Source: a virus
Reading direction: 5' to 3' (one strand)
DNA length: 22,087 nt
Virus record (IMG/VR): IMGVR_UViG_3300010885_046426
Coordinates: 1 to 22,087 of that record
Below the pieces are notes generated by a model. The model did not search any database. It was not told where the DNA came from and saw nothing but the letters and a program-made list of their open reading frames with translations. This document shows positions 3,749 through 7,928 of this stretch, in pieces. Numbering within the stretch: position 1 is the stretch's first letter; the number at the start of each line of letters is the position of its first letter. The position numbers were made by a program, and so were the translations under genes.

Positions 3749-4096
3749 ATGAAATTAGAAGTTACAAAAACAAACCTAATATTAGCTGCAGTAATTCTAT
3801 TACTGCTTGGTTACATTATAATCATAAGTAGAACAAACACTTCTATAAATGATTTAGAGTATAAAACCGAGATTGATAGCTTGAATAGAGTGATATCAAC
3901 TTACCAGCAGCACCAGGTTGTTTTGGATCAAAAGATTTCAAATAAAGAATTAGTTATTAAAAAGCTAGATCAAGAAATAGATTCAACAAAACAAGTAATA
4001 ATTCAAGAAAGAAAATACTATGGTGATAAAATTAAGAATGCTGGCCGTTATACTCCTACTGAGCTTGACAGCTTTTTCACAGAAAGATACAAGTAA
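3749..4096 (+). CDS. Membrane-anchored coiled-coil protein, candidate inner-membrane spanin
   Basis: A 115-residue protein with one N-terminal membrane helix (about residues 9-27, LILAAVILLLLGYIIIIS). A long predicted coiled coil follows to about residue 90 (regular Leu/Ile heptads, for example LVIKKLDQEIDSTKQVII), ending in YTPTELDSFFTERYK. The topology (short cytoplasmic N-terminus, one membrane span, periplasmic coiled coil) is that of an i-spanin such as Rz. Small coiled-coil proteins ending in FF..RY are, to my recollection, frequent in Bacteroidota phages and sit beside a protein with a VC....A.KI..D motif, as here. The last 77 nt overlap the next gene in another frame, typical of Rz/Rz1 layouts. 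The lysis role is inferred. No endolysin is in the window. Confidence 0.7.
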   Translation: MKLEVTKTNLILAAVILLLLGYIIIISRTNTSINDLEYKTEIDSLNRVISTYQQHQVVLDQKISNKELVIKKLDQEIDSTKQVIIQERKYYGDKIKNAGRYTPTELDSFFTERYK

Positions 4097-4457
4097 ACAA
4101 CAAAAAGTTTGCATGCCCTTAAGTGTGGCACAAAAAATAGCAGTTGATCTTATAAGATTAGACTCGGTTACTGTTGAGTTAAAAAACACACAAGTTGTTT
4201 TACAAAAGACTGAGCAAAAATTAAACGAGCAAGATAGTCTTATCTTAATATACAAAGAAAAGCTCTTAACTTACCAACAAGAGATAGCTATACAGAATAC
4301 TAGATTCAACACGTGCTCCGAAAGAATTACGAAGCTAGAGAAGGATGTAGTTAAATTGACTAATAAGAATAAAAGATTAAAAGGTTGGTTAAAAGGAATT
4401 GGTGGAGGTTTTATTACTAGTGTAGGATTGCTAATCGCCATGATTACAATAAAGTAA
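4020..4457 (+). CDS. Signal-peptide coiled-coil protein, candidate outer-component spanin
   Basis: A 145-residue protein overlapping the preceding gene by 77 nt in a different frame. Residues 1-21 look like a signal peptide: basic MVIKLR, hydrophobic LAVILLLSL, then TAFSQ, a common Bacteroidota cleavage context. The start at 4020 supplies the positive n-region; an ATG at 4038 would lack it. The mature part begins KDTSKQQKVCMPLSVAQKI and continues as a long coiled coil (VELKNTQVVLQKTEQKLNEQ, then ITKLEKDVVKLTNKNKRL). It ends with a hydrophobic stretch of about 17 residues (FITSVGLLIAMITIK), so it may also be anchored at the C-terminus, somewhat like a unimolecular spanin. There is no clear lipobox cysteine, so it is not a classical o-spanin lipoprotein. 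Confidence 0.65.
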   Translation: MVIKLRMLAVILLLSLTAFSQKDTSKQQKVCMPLSVAQKIAVDLIRLDSVTVELKNTQVVLQKTEQKLNEQDSLILIYKEKLLTYQQEIAIQNTRFNTCSERITKLEKDVVKLTNKNKRLKGWLKGIGGGFITSVGLLIAMITIK

Positions 4458-4458
4458 T

Positions 4459-6036
4459 ATGTCGGAACAACAAAAAAGTCTTAAAGATATCATAAAGGAT
4501 GAGTACGTTAAATGTGCTCGTTCAGCGTCTTACTTTATGAAAAAGTATTGTGTAATTCAGCACCCTACTAGAGGTAAGATCCCATTCCACTTATATCCAT
4601 ATCAGGAAGATGCATTACAAGACTTTCAAGATTTTGACAGAACAATCATTCTAAAGTCGAGACAGTTAGGTATATCAACACTTATAGCAGGATATGCGCT
4701 TTGGATGATCTTATTTCAAAATGATAAAAACGTACTTGTTGTTGCAATTGACCAAAACACCTCTAAAAACCTTGTAACAAAGGTACGAGTAATGTTTGAC
4801 AACTTACCGAGTTGGATGAAGTTAAAAGCAGTAGAAAGCAATAAGCTGTCCATGAGACTTTCAAACGGATCTCAAATTAAAGCCGTATCAAGCACAGGAA
4901 CATCAGGACGCTCAGAAGCATTATCATTAGTAATCATTGATGAGGCAGCTTTCGTTGATGGAGCAGAAGAGTTATGGGCATCACTACAGCAAACACTATC
5001 AACGGGTGGGGAAGGTATTTTATTATCAACTCCCAATGGTACTGGTAACTTTTTCCATAAAATGTGGACAAAAGCAGAGGCAGGCGATAATAAGTTCAAG
5101 ACACTAAGACTCCCATGGTCAGTACATCCAGAAAGGGATCAGGTTTGGCGAAACAGACAAGAGGATGAGTTAGGAGCTCGACTAGCAGCTCAAGAGTGTG
5201 ACTGTGACTTTAGTACATCAGGTAACACTGTAGTATCTCCAGAACTTATAACTTATTACATGCAGACGTTTGCTCAAGACCCAATCGAGAAGAGAGGTTT
5301 TGATGGAAACTTATGGATATGGGAGCAGCCAGATTACACTAGAAGCTATCTAATAGCAGCCGATGTTGCGCGTGGAGATGGTAGTGACTACTCTGCCTTT
5401 CATGTAATCGATGTGGAGAGTGCTAATCAAGTTGCTGAATACAAAGGTCAGCTGTCAACTAAAGACTTTGGTAATTTATTAGTAGCTGTTGGTACAGAAT
5501 ACAATGATGCACTAGTTGTAGTGGAGAATGCAAATGTAGGATGGGCAACCTTACAGCAGATAATAGAACGTGGTTATAAAAACCTCTACTATACACCAAA
5601 AGATAATGGATTGGATTCAGATAAATTCTTATCTCGAGGATATGACTTAACAGATAAGACTGATATGGTGGCTGGGTTTACAAACTCACACAAAGTAAGA
5701 CCTCTTACAATCAGTAAGATGGAGTTGTATATACGAGAAAAAAGCTGTATAATAAGGAGTAAGCGATTGCTAGACGAGTTGTTTGTTTTTATTTATAGAA
5801 ATGGAAGACCAGAAGCTGCATCGGGTTACCACGACGATTTAGTAATGTGTTTTTGTCAAGGATTGTGGGTAAGAGACACTGCATTGAGATTGAGACAAGC
5901 GGGAATAGATCTTAGCAGAACAGCCGTAAGTCACATCAAATCAACAGTATCAATATACAAGCCATCTAATACCAGAACCGGTTGGAGTATGAAAACACCG
6001 AATGGTAGCGATGAAGACCTTAACTGGTTAATGTGA
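4459..6036 (+). CDS. Terminase large subunit, T4 gp17-like
   Basis: The packaging motor ATPase and headful nuclease, 525 residues (T4 gp17 is about 610). The ATPase domain has a deviant Walker A, KSRQLGIST at residues 66-74, where Ile occupies the usual GK(S/T) lysine position and a Lys sits at the front of the loop. Walker B is LSLVIIDEA with D161-E162. The coupling motif LLSTPNGTGNFF is at 188-199. The RNase H-like nuclease domain supplies acidic residues in AADVARGDGSDY (D302), VVVENANVGW (E356) and SGYHDDLVMCF (D459-D460). It would act at the portal vertex, pumping concatemeric DNA into the prohead and cutting it. The start lies 1 nt after the upstream stop (TAATATG). No small terminase is recognisable next to it. 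A promoter-like element follows its stop. Confidence 0.96.
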   Translation: MSEQQKSLKDIIKDEYVKCARSASYFMKKYCVIQHPTRGKIPFHLYPYQEDALQDFQDFDRTIILKSRQLGISTLIAGYALWMILFQNDKNVLVVAIDQNTSKNLVTKVRVMFDNLPSWMKLKAVESNKLSMRLSNGSQIKAVSSTGTSGRSEALSLVIIDEAAFVDGAEELWASLQQTLSTGGEGILLSTPNGTGNFFHKMWTKAEAGDNKFKTLRLPWSVHPERDQVWRNRQEDELGARLAAQECDCDFSTSGNTVVSPELITYYMQTFAQDPIEKRGFDGNLWIWEQPDYTRSYLIAADVARGDGSDYSAFHVIDVESANQVAEYKGQLSTKDFGNLLVAVGTEYNDALVVVENANVGWATLQQIIERGYKNLYYTPKDNGLDSDKFLSRGYDLTDKTDMVAGFTNSHKVRPLTISKMELYIREKSCIIRSKRLLDELFVFIYRNGRPEAASGYHDDLVMCFCQGLWVRDTALRLRQAGIDLSRTAVSHIKSTVSIYKPSNTRTGWSMKTPNGSDEDLNWLM

Positions 6037-6059: not shown

Positions 6060-7928
6060 ATGGCTGAAGACCAACAACCAAGATCAATTTTTGCATCCTT
6101 AAGAAGACTATTTAGTACAGACGTTATTATACGTAATGTAGGAGGGAATCAGTTAAAAGTGATCGATACCGACATGATTCAATCTGATGGTAATATTAAG
6201 ACCAACAGACGAGTTGATAGGTATTCAAGACTATTCTCAGTTATGCCAGGCGGAATGTCTATGCATGCTGGGCAATTACAGTTATACACTCGACTAGAGT
6301 TATTCCGTGATTACGAAGCAATGGATACGGATAGTATTATATGTTCAGCATTAGACATATATGCTGATGAGTGTACTGCTAAGAATGAATTTGGAGATAT
6401 CTTAACGATTAAGTCTCCTAACGAAAAAGTGCAAAAAGTACTTCACAATCTTTTTTACGATGTATTGAATATTGAGTTCAATTTATGGCCATGGATTAGA
6501 AACACCGTCAAGTATGGTGACTTCTTTTTAAAGCTAGATATTGCAGAAAAGTATGGTGTGATTAATGTGGAACCTATCTCAGCCTATGAGATGATCCGTG
6601 AGGAGGGTATGGATCCAAACAAGCCAAATGAAATTAAATTTAAAAGAGACTTTACAGCTCTTTCATCAGCTTATTCTGTTTCATCTAATAAAGATGCAGA
6701 AGAGTTTGACAACTACGAAATAGCTCACTTCAGACTACTTACAGATACAAACTTCCTACCTTACGGTCGTTCTATTATTGAACCAACAAGAAAGGTTTGG
6801 AAGCAAATCACTCTTATGGAAGATGCGATGTTAATACACCGTATCATGAGAGCTCCAGACAAGCGTGTATTCAAAATTGATATTGGTAATATTCCACCAA
6901 ACGAAGTAGAAGCGTTTATGGAAGGTATGGTCAACAAAATGAAAAAAGTACCATACATTGATCAAGATACTGGAGAATATAATCTAAAATACAACATGCA
7001 AAACTTACTAGAAGATTTCTACCTTCCAGTACGTGGTGCAGAAAGTGGAACTTCAATTGAATCTTTGGCAGGTGTTCAGTATGACTCTATTCAAGATATT
7101 GACTATCTTAAAAATAGATTGTTAGGATCTTTAAAAATTCCTAAAGCTTATTTAGGATATGAAGAGGATACAACTGGAAAAGCTACACTAGCTTCTCAAG
7201 ACTTTAGATTTGCTAGAACGGTTGAGAGAATACAAAAGATAATATCTTCCGAGCTTAATAAAATAGCAATAGTGCATTTATATGCACAAGGGTTTACAGA
7301 CGAAGAACTAGTAGACTTTTCGTTAGCTTTAACAGCACCATCTTCTGTATATGAAAAAGAGAAGGTAGAGTTGTGGTCATCTAAAGTAACACTTGCTGGT
7401 GATATGATTGAGAAGAAACTATTCAGTCGCTATTGGGTATATGAAAACTTATTCAACCTAAGTGAAGCTCAGTTCTTACATGAGCAAGATAGAATTATCG
7501 AAGATACAAAAGCACAGTTTAGAATTGAACAGATTAAGACTGAAGGGAATGACCCAGTAAAAACTAAACAATCATTTGGAACACCACATGATTTAGCAGC
7601 TTTATACAAAGGTAATGGTGGAGTTCCGAAGGGATATGATGCTGATAAGAGTATGCCTGATGGAGGTTGGCCAGGAGCAGGACGTCCAGAAGAACCAGGA
7701 TCCTACAGAACACACGAGCATCCACTTGGATGGGATCCGTTAGGAAACAAAACAATAATGAATGTGTCAGAGACAAAATCAGCTAAAAGACAGTCAATTG
7801 AAGCGTATAGATCGCTATTAAACTCTATGCCAACTAAGAGACAAGCGTTAACTGAGACATTTGATGAGAAAATTGAGCAAGATAACTCAAATTTATTGAG
7901 CGAAGATAACATCTTACCAGAGGAATAA
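6060..7928 (+). CDS. Portal protein, T4 gp20-like
   Basis: The dodecameric portal at the unique head vertex: it nucleates head assembly, docks the terminase and later joins the neck. At 622 residues it is longer than T4 gp20 (524). The gp20-type signature is clear: RVDRYSRLFSVM (51-62), an ALDIYADECTAKNEFG segment (97-112), and LWPWIRNTVKYGDFFLKLD (142-160), then ISAYEMIREEG. The clip/stem region follows (RAPDKRVFKIDIGNIPP, later LGSLKIPKAYLGYEEDTTGK). The extra length is mostly C-terminal: a Gly/Pro-rich stretch around 505-563 (GGVPKGYDADKSMPDGGWPG, then YRTHEHPLGWDP) and an acidic tail containing LTE and LLSE. The start at 6060 is the first ATG after the promoter-like element. No Shine-Dalgarno is present. 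Confidence 0.95.
   Translation: MAEDQQPRSIFASLRRLFSTDVIIRNVGGNQLKVIDTDMIQSDGNIKTNRRVDRYSRLFSVMPGGMSMHAGQLQLYTRLELFRDYEAMDTDSIICSALDIYADECTAKNEFGDILTIKSPNEKVQKVLHNLFYDVLNIEFNLWPWIRNTVKYGDFFLKLDIAEKYGVINVEPISAYEMIREEGMDPNKPNEIKFKRDFTALSSAYSVSSNKDAEEFDNYEIAHFRLLTDTNFLPYGRSIIEPTRKVWKQITLMEDAMLIHRIMRAPDKRVFKIDIGNIPPNEVEAFMEGMVNKMKKVPYIDQDTGEYNLKYNMQNLLEDFYLPVRGAESGTSIESLAGVQYDSIQDIDYLKNRLLGSLKIPKAYLGYEEDTTGKATLASQDFRFARTVERIQKIISSELNKIAIVHLYAQGFTDEELVDFSLALTAPSSVYEKEKVELWSSKVTLAGDMIEKKLFSRYWVYENLFNLSEAQFLHEQDRIIEDTKAQFRIEQIKTEGNDPVKTKQSFGTPHDLAALYKGNGGVPKGYDADKSMPDGGWPGAGRPEEPGSYRTHEHPLGWDPLGNKTIMNVSETKSAKRQSIEAYRSLLNSMPTKRQALTETFDEKIEQDNSNLLSEDNILPEE

Follow-up and report, generated by a model that had tools for sequence, protein, structure and literature searches.

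We identified a pair of overlapping genes, here called A and B, directly upstream of the terminase large subunit gene (terL) in a viral DNA stretch of 22,087 bases (the window), which contains a T4-like head and packaging operon. These two genes probably encode a two-component lysis module that would be expressed late and act in the manner of a spanin, in a phage infecting Bacteroidota; we put the probability of this reading at about 0.74. The spanin-like reading is well supported by comparative sequence evidence.

The first gene, A (positions 3749–4096, plus strand), encodes an i-spanin-like protein of 115 amino acids with an N-in transmembrane span, a periplasmic coiled coil and a conserved C-terminal motif. 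Judged by hydropathy and its coiled-coil-like sequence, it has the N-terminal span and periplasmic domain expected of the first gene of a two-component spanin. The span (residues 10–26; 3776–3826, plus strand) was placed at the Kyte–Doolittle (KD) maximum and is strongly hydrophobic among homologues (mean KD 2.77), whose insertion score is negative in 81 of 81 cases, the least negative value being -0.36 on a crude membrane-insertion scale. The C-terminal motif, ELDSFFTERYK (4061–4093, plus strand), is encoded by DNA that also encodes the end of the B signal peptide, and its L, F, R and Y residues are invariant in 20 aligned homologues. A contains no cysteine in the window, and a periplasmic Cys occurs in A of only three of the 81 homologous pairs described below.

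The second gene, B (4020–4457, plus strand; 145 amino acids), starts out of frame inside A and extends beyond it, the overlap covering 77 nt (4020–4096, plus strand); terL (4459–6036, plus strand; PHROG terminase large subunit, 5.6e-48) lies directly downstream of B and outside the module. B has a cleavable signal peptide (4020–4079, plus strand) with n-, h- and c-regions that ends in LTAFS|Q and has no Cys nearby; its predicted cleavage by signal peptidase I, at S20|Q21, agrees with the Bacteroidota Q-rule. An AlphaFold2 (AF2) model based on 71 aligned sequences, from the window and the loci, predicted a signal helix at residues 2–20, a linker and one continuous helix at residues 34–144 (4119–4451, plus strand; mean pLDDT 86). 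By residue counts, a Lys/Arg-rich stretch (4353–4394, plus strand) directly precedes a C-terminal hydrophobic segment, GIGGGFITSVGLLIAMI (4395–4445, plus strand), which is a putative membrane anchor of uncertain destination. The mature protein contains two periplasmic cysteines, Cys31 (4110–4112, plus strand) and Cys99 (4314–4316, plus strand). The original prediction had described A as a single-span coiled-coil protein ending in FFTERYK and overlapped out of frame by 77 nt, and B as a protein with a signal peptide, a coiled coil and a terminal hydrophobic stretch; all of these features are present. It had also noted that B lacks a lipobox, which holds in every one of the 81 homologous pairs. 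Lipidation at an internal Cys of B was considered and rejected: the signal peptide ends 11 residues before Cys31, and a lipobox was not found.

The suggestion that the pair might be conserved in other phages was borne out: at least 81 distinct homologous A/B pairs keep the layout, including one in an isolate, Flavobacterium phage immuto. These pairs were collected by a terminase search (80 loci kept) and by profile searches (the best 80 of 164 and the best 80 of 227 confirmed relatives); duplicates were removed and four rows in which A matched the B profile were dropped, which reduced 85 pairs to 81. Every one of the 80 pairs whose start is readable has an A–B overlap of 74–95 nt, always in the same relative frame, and an export signal on B. 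When 18 larger records were searched with the B profile, B was found in 12, one copy in each, and the weak second matches in two of these 12 coincide with the A gene.

Outside the overlap, both genes are under purifying selection, with dN/dS of approximately 0.1: comparison of the window with L001, L014, L006, L010 and L011 gave 0.08–0.12 for A and 0.09–0.11 for B, and comparison with L017 gave 0.16 and 0.11, respectively. Nucleotide identity between the window and L010 or L011 is about 0.90 in the overlap, 0.79 in the rest of A and 0.68 in the rest of B. From L010 outward the overlap is more conserved than its flanks, and in comparison with the three closest relatives its conservation lies between those of A and B. 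S20 and Q21 of B are invariant in 71 of 71 aligned sequences, and Gln is found at position +1 of the predicted site in 80 of the 81 pairs (L022, whose B is truncated or frameshifted, was scored as lacking the site). The conservation of this cleavage site and that of the A motif are not independent, since the same overlap DNA encodes both. In addition, the search patterns held the B signal peptide up to FS and the ELxxFFxxRY motif of A, so the high conservation of both motifs comes partly from the selection of matches. Loci from the terminase search, which were chosen without these motifs, also show both of them (of the 20 sequences aligned, 19 come from the window or from loci of this kind).

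The Bacteroidetes Q-rule describes signal peptidase I sites that are immediately followed by Gln (PMC5837995, in its available text). A site of this kind marks B as an exported protein that would not be lipidated, and it points to a Bacteroidota host. Such a host agrees with the closest isolate of named Bacteroidota host, Flavobacterium phage immuto, whose terminase is 54% identical to that of the window. A terminase with the same identity to the window (54%) was also observed in Microcystis phage Mel-JY01 (L087, PP395634.1), together with a terL-slot B carrying a Q-rule signal peptide; both traits are typical of Bacteroidota phages, and the recorded cyanobacterial host of this phage deserves a check.

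Known protein families gave little help in assigning A and B. Searches of both against Pfam and PHROGs yielded nothing beyond chance-level coiled-coil matches; the Rz-like spanin profile phrog_89 gave E values of 0.49 for A and 0.037 for B, and only one of 71 B members fell below 0.01 with the PHROG spanin profile. A PDB search with the two proteins returned one weak match (E 0.006). No tblastn match to either was obtained in annotated phages, the immuto homologue having surfaced only on direct search of the immuto record, and no relatives of A or B were found in bacterial genomes.

The genomic location of the homologous pairs bears directly on their function. Most of them (57/81) lie within 120 nt upstream of terL, in the head-gene operon. 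The original prediction had considered the place of the pair before terL odd; this does not hold within the family, since the terL slot is its usual home, and spanins away from the endolysin are known in T4. The remaining 24 pairs lie away from terL, and 21 of them have a gene for a peptidoglycan hydrolase and/or a holin nearby. Eleven, immuto included, follow a GH19 endolysin and/or a holin match within 3 kb, and the neighbourhoods of L149 and L137 were confirmed by Pfam; these 11 pairs look like one lineage and therefore represent few independent events. The other 13 comprise 10 that share an operon with an Amidase_2 gene (detected by tblastn in 10 of 10, and over the Pfam cut-off in five of five tested) and three that were unplaced. 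The endolysin/holin association expected of two-component spanins was thus found in relatives only, and these neighbours support a lysis role for the pair. Together with the lack of a lipobox in all 81 pairs (0/81), they also support the earlier proposal that the pair is spanin-like and that B is neither a standard o-spanin nor a standard u-spanin.

In immuto, the gene order is GH19 endolysin (PF00182; PHROG endolysin, 3e-63), holin (PF05105), two genes, A and B; the terL slot of this phage has no pair, and the pair sits in the lysis cassette. In the L042 genome, the pair is at terL and a GH19 endolysin is found approximately 12 kb further on, in the structural region. No GH19 match was detected within the window, and likewise none in control genomes. 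The annotated start of the immuto gene immuto136C_84 (46085) is too late, as it cuts off the signal peptide; the likely B gene is L091:10044-10445 (MW353177.1, 46043–46444), which overlaps A by 89 nt.

Two further observations concern the surroundings of the pair. Approximately 2 kb upstream of it, positions 1666–1890 of the window (plus strand) encode a membrane protein of 74 amino acids, which contains hydrophobic segments and whose C-terminus is basic. It has tblastn matches in 40 loci (some on a common contig) and no PHROG match, and it is a candidate holin of the phage. In L194, B is followed just downstream (position 7664) by an ORF corresponding to the N-terminal part of terL, an unrelated 280-amino acid ORF and, about 2 kb on, the next terL match; this split terminase possibly reflects an intron or homing insertion.

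In some relatives, single-gene proteins were found in place of the pair. At the terL slot of L026 and L028–L031, the pair is replaced by a gene for a 248-amino acid protein with an N-terminal span, a coil and a C-terminus ending in GVGFGLQYNLIKF, an apparent beta tail whose last residues are QYNLIKF; in others, such as L038, a 207-amino acid single gene occupies the slot. The AF2 model of the 248-amino acid protein was poor (mean pLDDT 48.7), and its beta tail is therefore proposed from the sequence pattern only. Distant relatives of this form were found in L238, after a glucosaminidase gene (PF01832, slightly under the cut-off) and before DUF5675, and in L239, downstream of GH108. Furthermore, the single gene of L237 has on either side a homologue of the corresponding neighbour of A/B in L142, L143 and L166: the upstream neighbour matched with E values of 9e-8 to 2e-7, and the downstream one with 1e-4 (L142) and 0.006 (L143), no match being listed for L166. 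Such single-gene proteins of the DUF6549/DUF6808 type in Bacteroidota phages resemble the pair in occupying its genomic slots and lying near endolysins. They differ from it in being encoded by one gene, in their N-terminal span and in an apparent beta C-terminus whose last residue is Phe; no homology between them and A or B was detected. The interchange at two slots, together with the endolysin neighbours of both forms, is the strongest argument for a common function. A DUF6549 protein (PF20186, 8.6e-29) was also observed in Bacteroides phage B124-14 (L090:6765-7370, minus strand) directly after an M15 peptidase endolysin; this phage is listed as spanin-less, and the protein is a candidate for a unimolecular spanin.

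A sister type of pair was also detected at the terL slot, with terL directly downstream in 24 of 24 loci checked (36 were returned). Its two genes overlap by 1 nt in 24 of 25 distinct cases and by 4 nt in the other. The second protein has a textbook lipobox in 11 of 25, LASC|AAP... being one example, while most of the remainder have only a Q-rule signal. An hhalign comparison of B with the sister B gave a probability of 89% (E 2e-6, 116 columns); as the coiled-coil control, B versus A, reached 68% (E 5e-5), homology of B and sister B is likely rather than proven. In L261, L262, L265, L266, L272, L274, L275 and others, the N-terminus alternates within one family between a lipobox (LASCAAPKKCCAQ) and a Q-rule signal (NSFAQ), an apparent switch between export through signal peptidase II and signal peptidase I.

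A comparable pair is present in Croceibacter phage P2559S, where overlapping genes at 27300–27674 and 27508–28065 follow an Amidase_3 endolysin. The first encodes a coiled coil with an N-terminal span, and the second a coiled-coil protein with a Q-rule signal peptide and apparent amphipathic beta strands at its end (...GGRLSFAIW); the layout is kept in three further contigs (a fourth, L240, is P2559S itself). Thus, the P2559S pair shares with A/B an N-terminal-span coiled-coil gene overlapped by a Q-rule coiled-coil gene, here adjoining an endolysin, whereas its overlap is 167 nt, its second protein ends in apparent beta strands, and its proteins are not established as homologues of A or B. 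The exported 185-amino acid ORF beside the endolysin (L092:27508-28065) was annotated only as its last part (27826–28065), and it is a candidate second spanin component in another phage listed as spanin-less.

Several known spanin systems can be compared with A and B. Overlapped two-component spanins are those of the P2 LysB/LysC kind, of which lambda Rz/Rz1 is an embedded relative, and a combination of zero and two cysteines is the commonest among known two-component spanins (both according to the available text of PMC6139136). A/B resembles these in several ways: the first protein is a coiled coil of the inner membrane, the end of its gene overlaps out of frame with the gene of a second, exported protein, cysteines number zero in the first protein and two in the second (at least one periplasmic Cys per pair being expected), and lysis genes are neighbours, here in relatives. 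On the other hand, B is a predicted Q-rule signal peptidase I substrate rather than a lipoprotein, and it combines a long helix with a hydrophobic segment at its C-terminus. In T4, the spanin genes pseT.3 and pseT.2 are away from the endolysin and holin genes (PMC6139136, available text). A/B and PseT.3/PseT.2 have in common a T4-like phage, this separate location and the 0 + 2 cysteines; PseT.2, in contrast, is an o-spanin with a lipoprotein signal, the T4 genes are of the separated kind, and the models run gave no sequence match to A/B. Unimolecular spanins (T1 gp11) also have a C-terminal hydrophobic segment after a periplasmic domain, whereas B has no lipobox, has periplasmic Cys, is all-helical and lies beside a second gene. 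Layout, A topology, cysteines and the neighbourhood of relatives therefore agree with spanins, and B has neither the lipoprotein signal of an o-spanin nor the N-terminal lipoylation of a u-spanin, which points to spanin-like action outside both canonical classes.

A reasonable scheme is as follows. The N-terminal span of A would anchor this protein in the inner membrane and leave its coiled coil in the periplasm. B would be exported through Sec, processed ahead of Gln21 by signal peptidase I and form a periplasmic helix of about 110 residues, with the conserved C-terminus of A probably meeting the conserved mature N-terminus of B. The marginally hydrophobic, Lys/Arg-preceded C-terminus of B may be seated in the outer membrane, which is the topology we favour. 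The resulting chain, from inner membrane through A and B to outer membrane, would span the periplasm, and removal of the peptidoglycan by the endolysin would let it collapse and join the membranes, presumably by fusion. At 0.15 nm per helical residue, the A and B coils would extend approximately 11 and 13 nm, a sum close to the width of the periplasm.

Several observations speak against the spanin-like reading: B has no lipobox, while lipidation is a defining property of o-spanins; the pair is not recognised by any spanin model of PHROG or Pfam; most pairs (57/81) are not beside an endolysin; and the window itself gave no GH19 match. A topological alternative with the same function would make B a type I protein, with its C-terminus in the inner membrane and its N-terminal part extending to the outer membrane either lipid-free or only by way of a partner; in that case B would be a u-spanin whose lipobox has been lost, and A a helper. 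A C-terminus in the inner membrane is equally compatible with the predicted continuous helix, and the segment is of membrane-span length and predicted to be helical. The sister B proteins with both an N-terminal lipobox and a C-terminal hydrophobic segment (11/25) show the u-spanin layout, and type I inner-membrane proteins have been proposed as possible i-spanins (PMC6139136, available text). However, neither a lipid nor any other outer-membrane link is visible at the N-terminus of B. The segment is only marginally hydrophobic, less so than the A span in 78 of 80 pairs, and Lys/Arg residues are more frequent before than after it in 80 of 80 (mean 4.7 in the 14 residues before it versus 0.8 in the tail after it, which averages only 1.7 residues). 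Such flanking charges are unfavourable for an N-out/C-in anchor in the inner membrane under the positive-inside rule. Moreover, mature B has at least one Cys in 75 of the 81 pairs, and none of 58 surveyed u-spanins has a periplasmic Cys (PMC6139136, available text). Hydrophobicity and charge mildly favour placing the B C-terminus in the outer membrane, and we consider the type I topology rather unlikely.

The other explanations give the pair a different function and appear less probable still. A and B might control the timing of lysis, as a holin partner or antiholin-like sensor, rather than disrupt the outer membrane: immuto-like phages have a holin nearby, and small membrane-anchored periplasmic proteins such as T4 RI can regulate holins. 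However, replacement by a long protein that combines an inner-membrane span with an apparent beta tail agrees better with a role across the periplasm, and the long rigid coils, overlapping genes and cysteine pattern follow two-component spanins, so that a timing role seems improbable. The position of 57 of 81 pairs directly before terL in the head-gene operon would suit a membrane-bound factor for head assembly or packaging, yet the pair is elsewhere in 24 of 81, with a hydrolase and/or holin gene nearby in 21 of these, and immuto has it in the lysis cassette and not at terL; because of the 24 pairs away from terL we rejected this explanation, which retains very little probability. Least probable of all is an accessory gene (moron) for superinfection exclusion or envelope modification. 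In its favour, A and B are two small envelope proteins of unknown family, but the pair is conserved as a single copy in 12 of 12 records with a match, is under strong purifying selection and lies among structural or lysis genes, and PADLOC gave no match for A or B.

A more specific form of the spanin-like reading, which we advance tentatively and would not quite call probable, is that B is a non-lipidated o-spanin that is exported under the Q-rule, is held in the outer membrane by its C-terminus and represents one of several interchangeable forms in Bacteroidota phages. These forms would comprise A/B pairs, pairs with beta strands at the end of B, and single beta-tailed proteins that reach from the inner to the outer membrane. 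If this is true, a whole route of outer-membrane disruption would be invisible to lipobox-based surveys. According to its available text, one such survey requires a lipobox, lists P2559S, P2559Y and B124-14 as spanin-less and says that its criteria ignore other topologies (PMC6139136); in RM378, also listed as spanin-less, we found no pair upstream of the terminase. Another discarded o-spanins that had no lipobox, and its conclusion is that unimolecular spanins are the only kind used by Bacteroidetes phages (PMC12596118, available text). No description of a Q-rule spanin was found in the titles and abstract beginnings of freely available papers on spanins in Bacteroidetes or Flavobacterium phages, or on spanins in connection with signal peptidase I or a lipobox. 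The presence of a Q-rule signal instead of a lipobox offers a concrete explanation of how lipobox-requiring surveys could miss such genes, and the missing lipid-attachment signal may be why these pairs were overlooked.

Most likely, the pair helps to burst the outer membrane of the host. It is conserved and widespread. Given its presence in the cultured phage immuto, whose host is Flavobacterium sp. LMO8, the way in which phages considered spanin-less open the outer membrane becomes directly testable.
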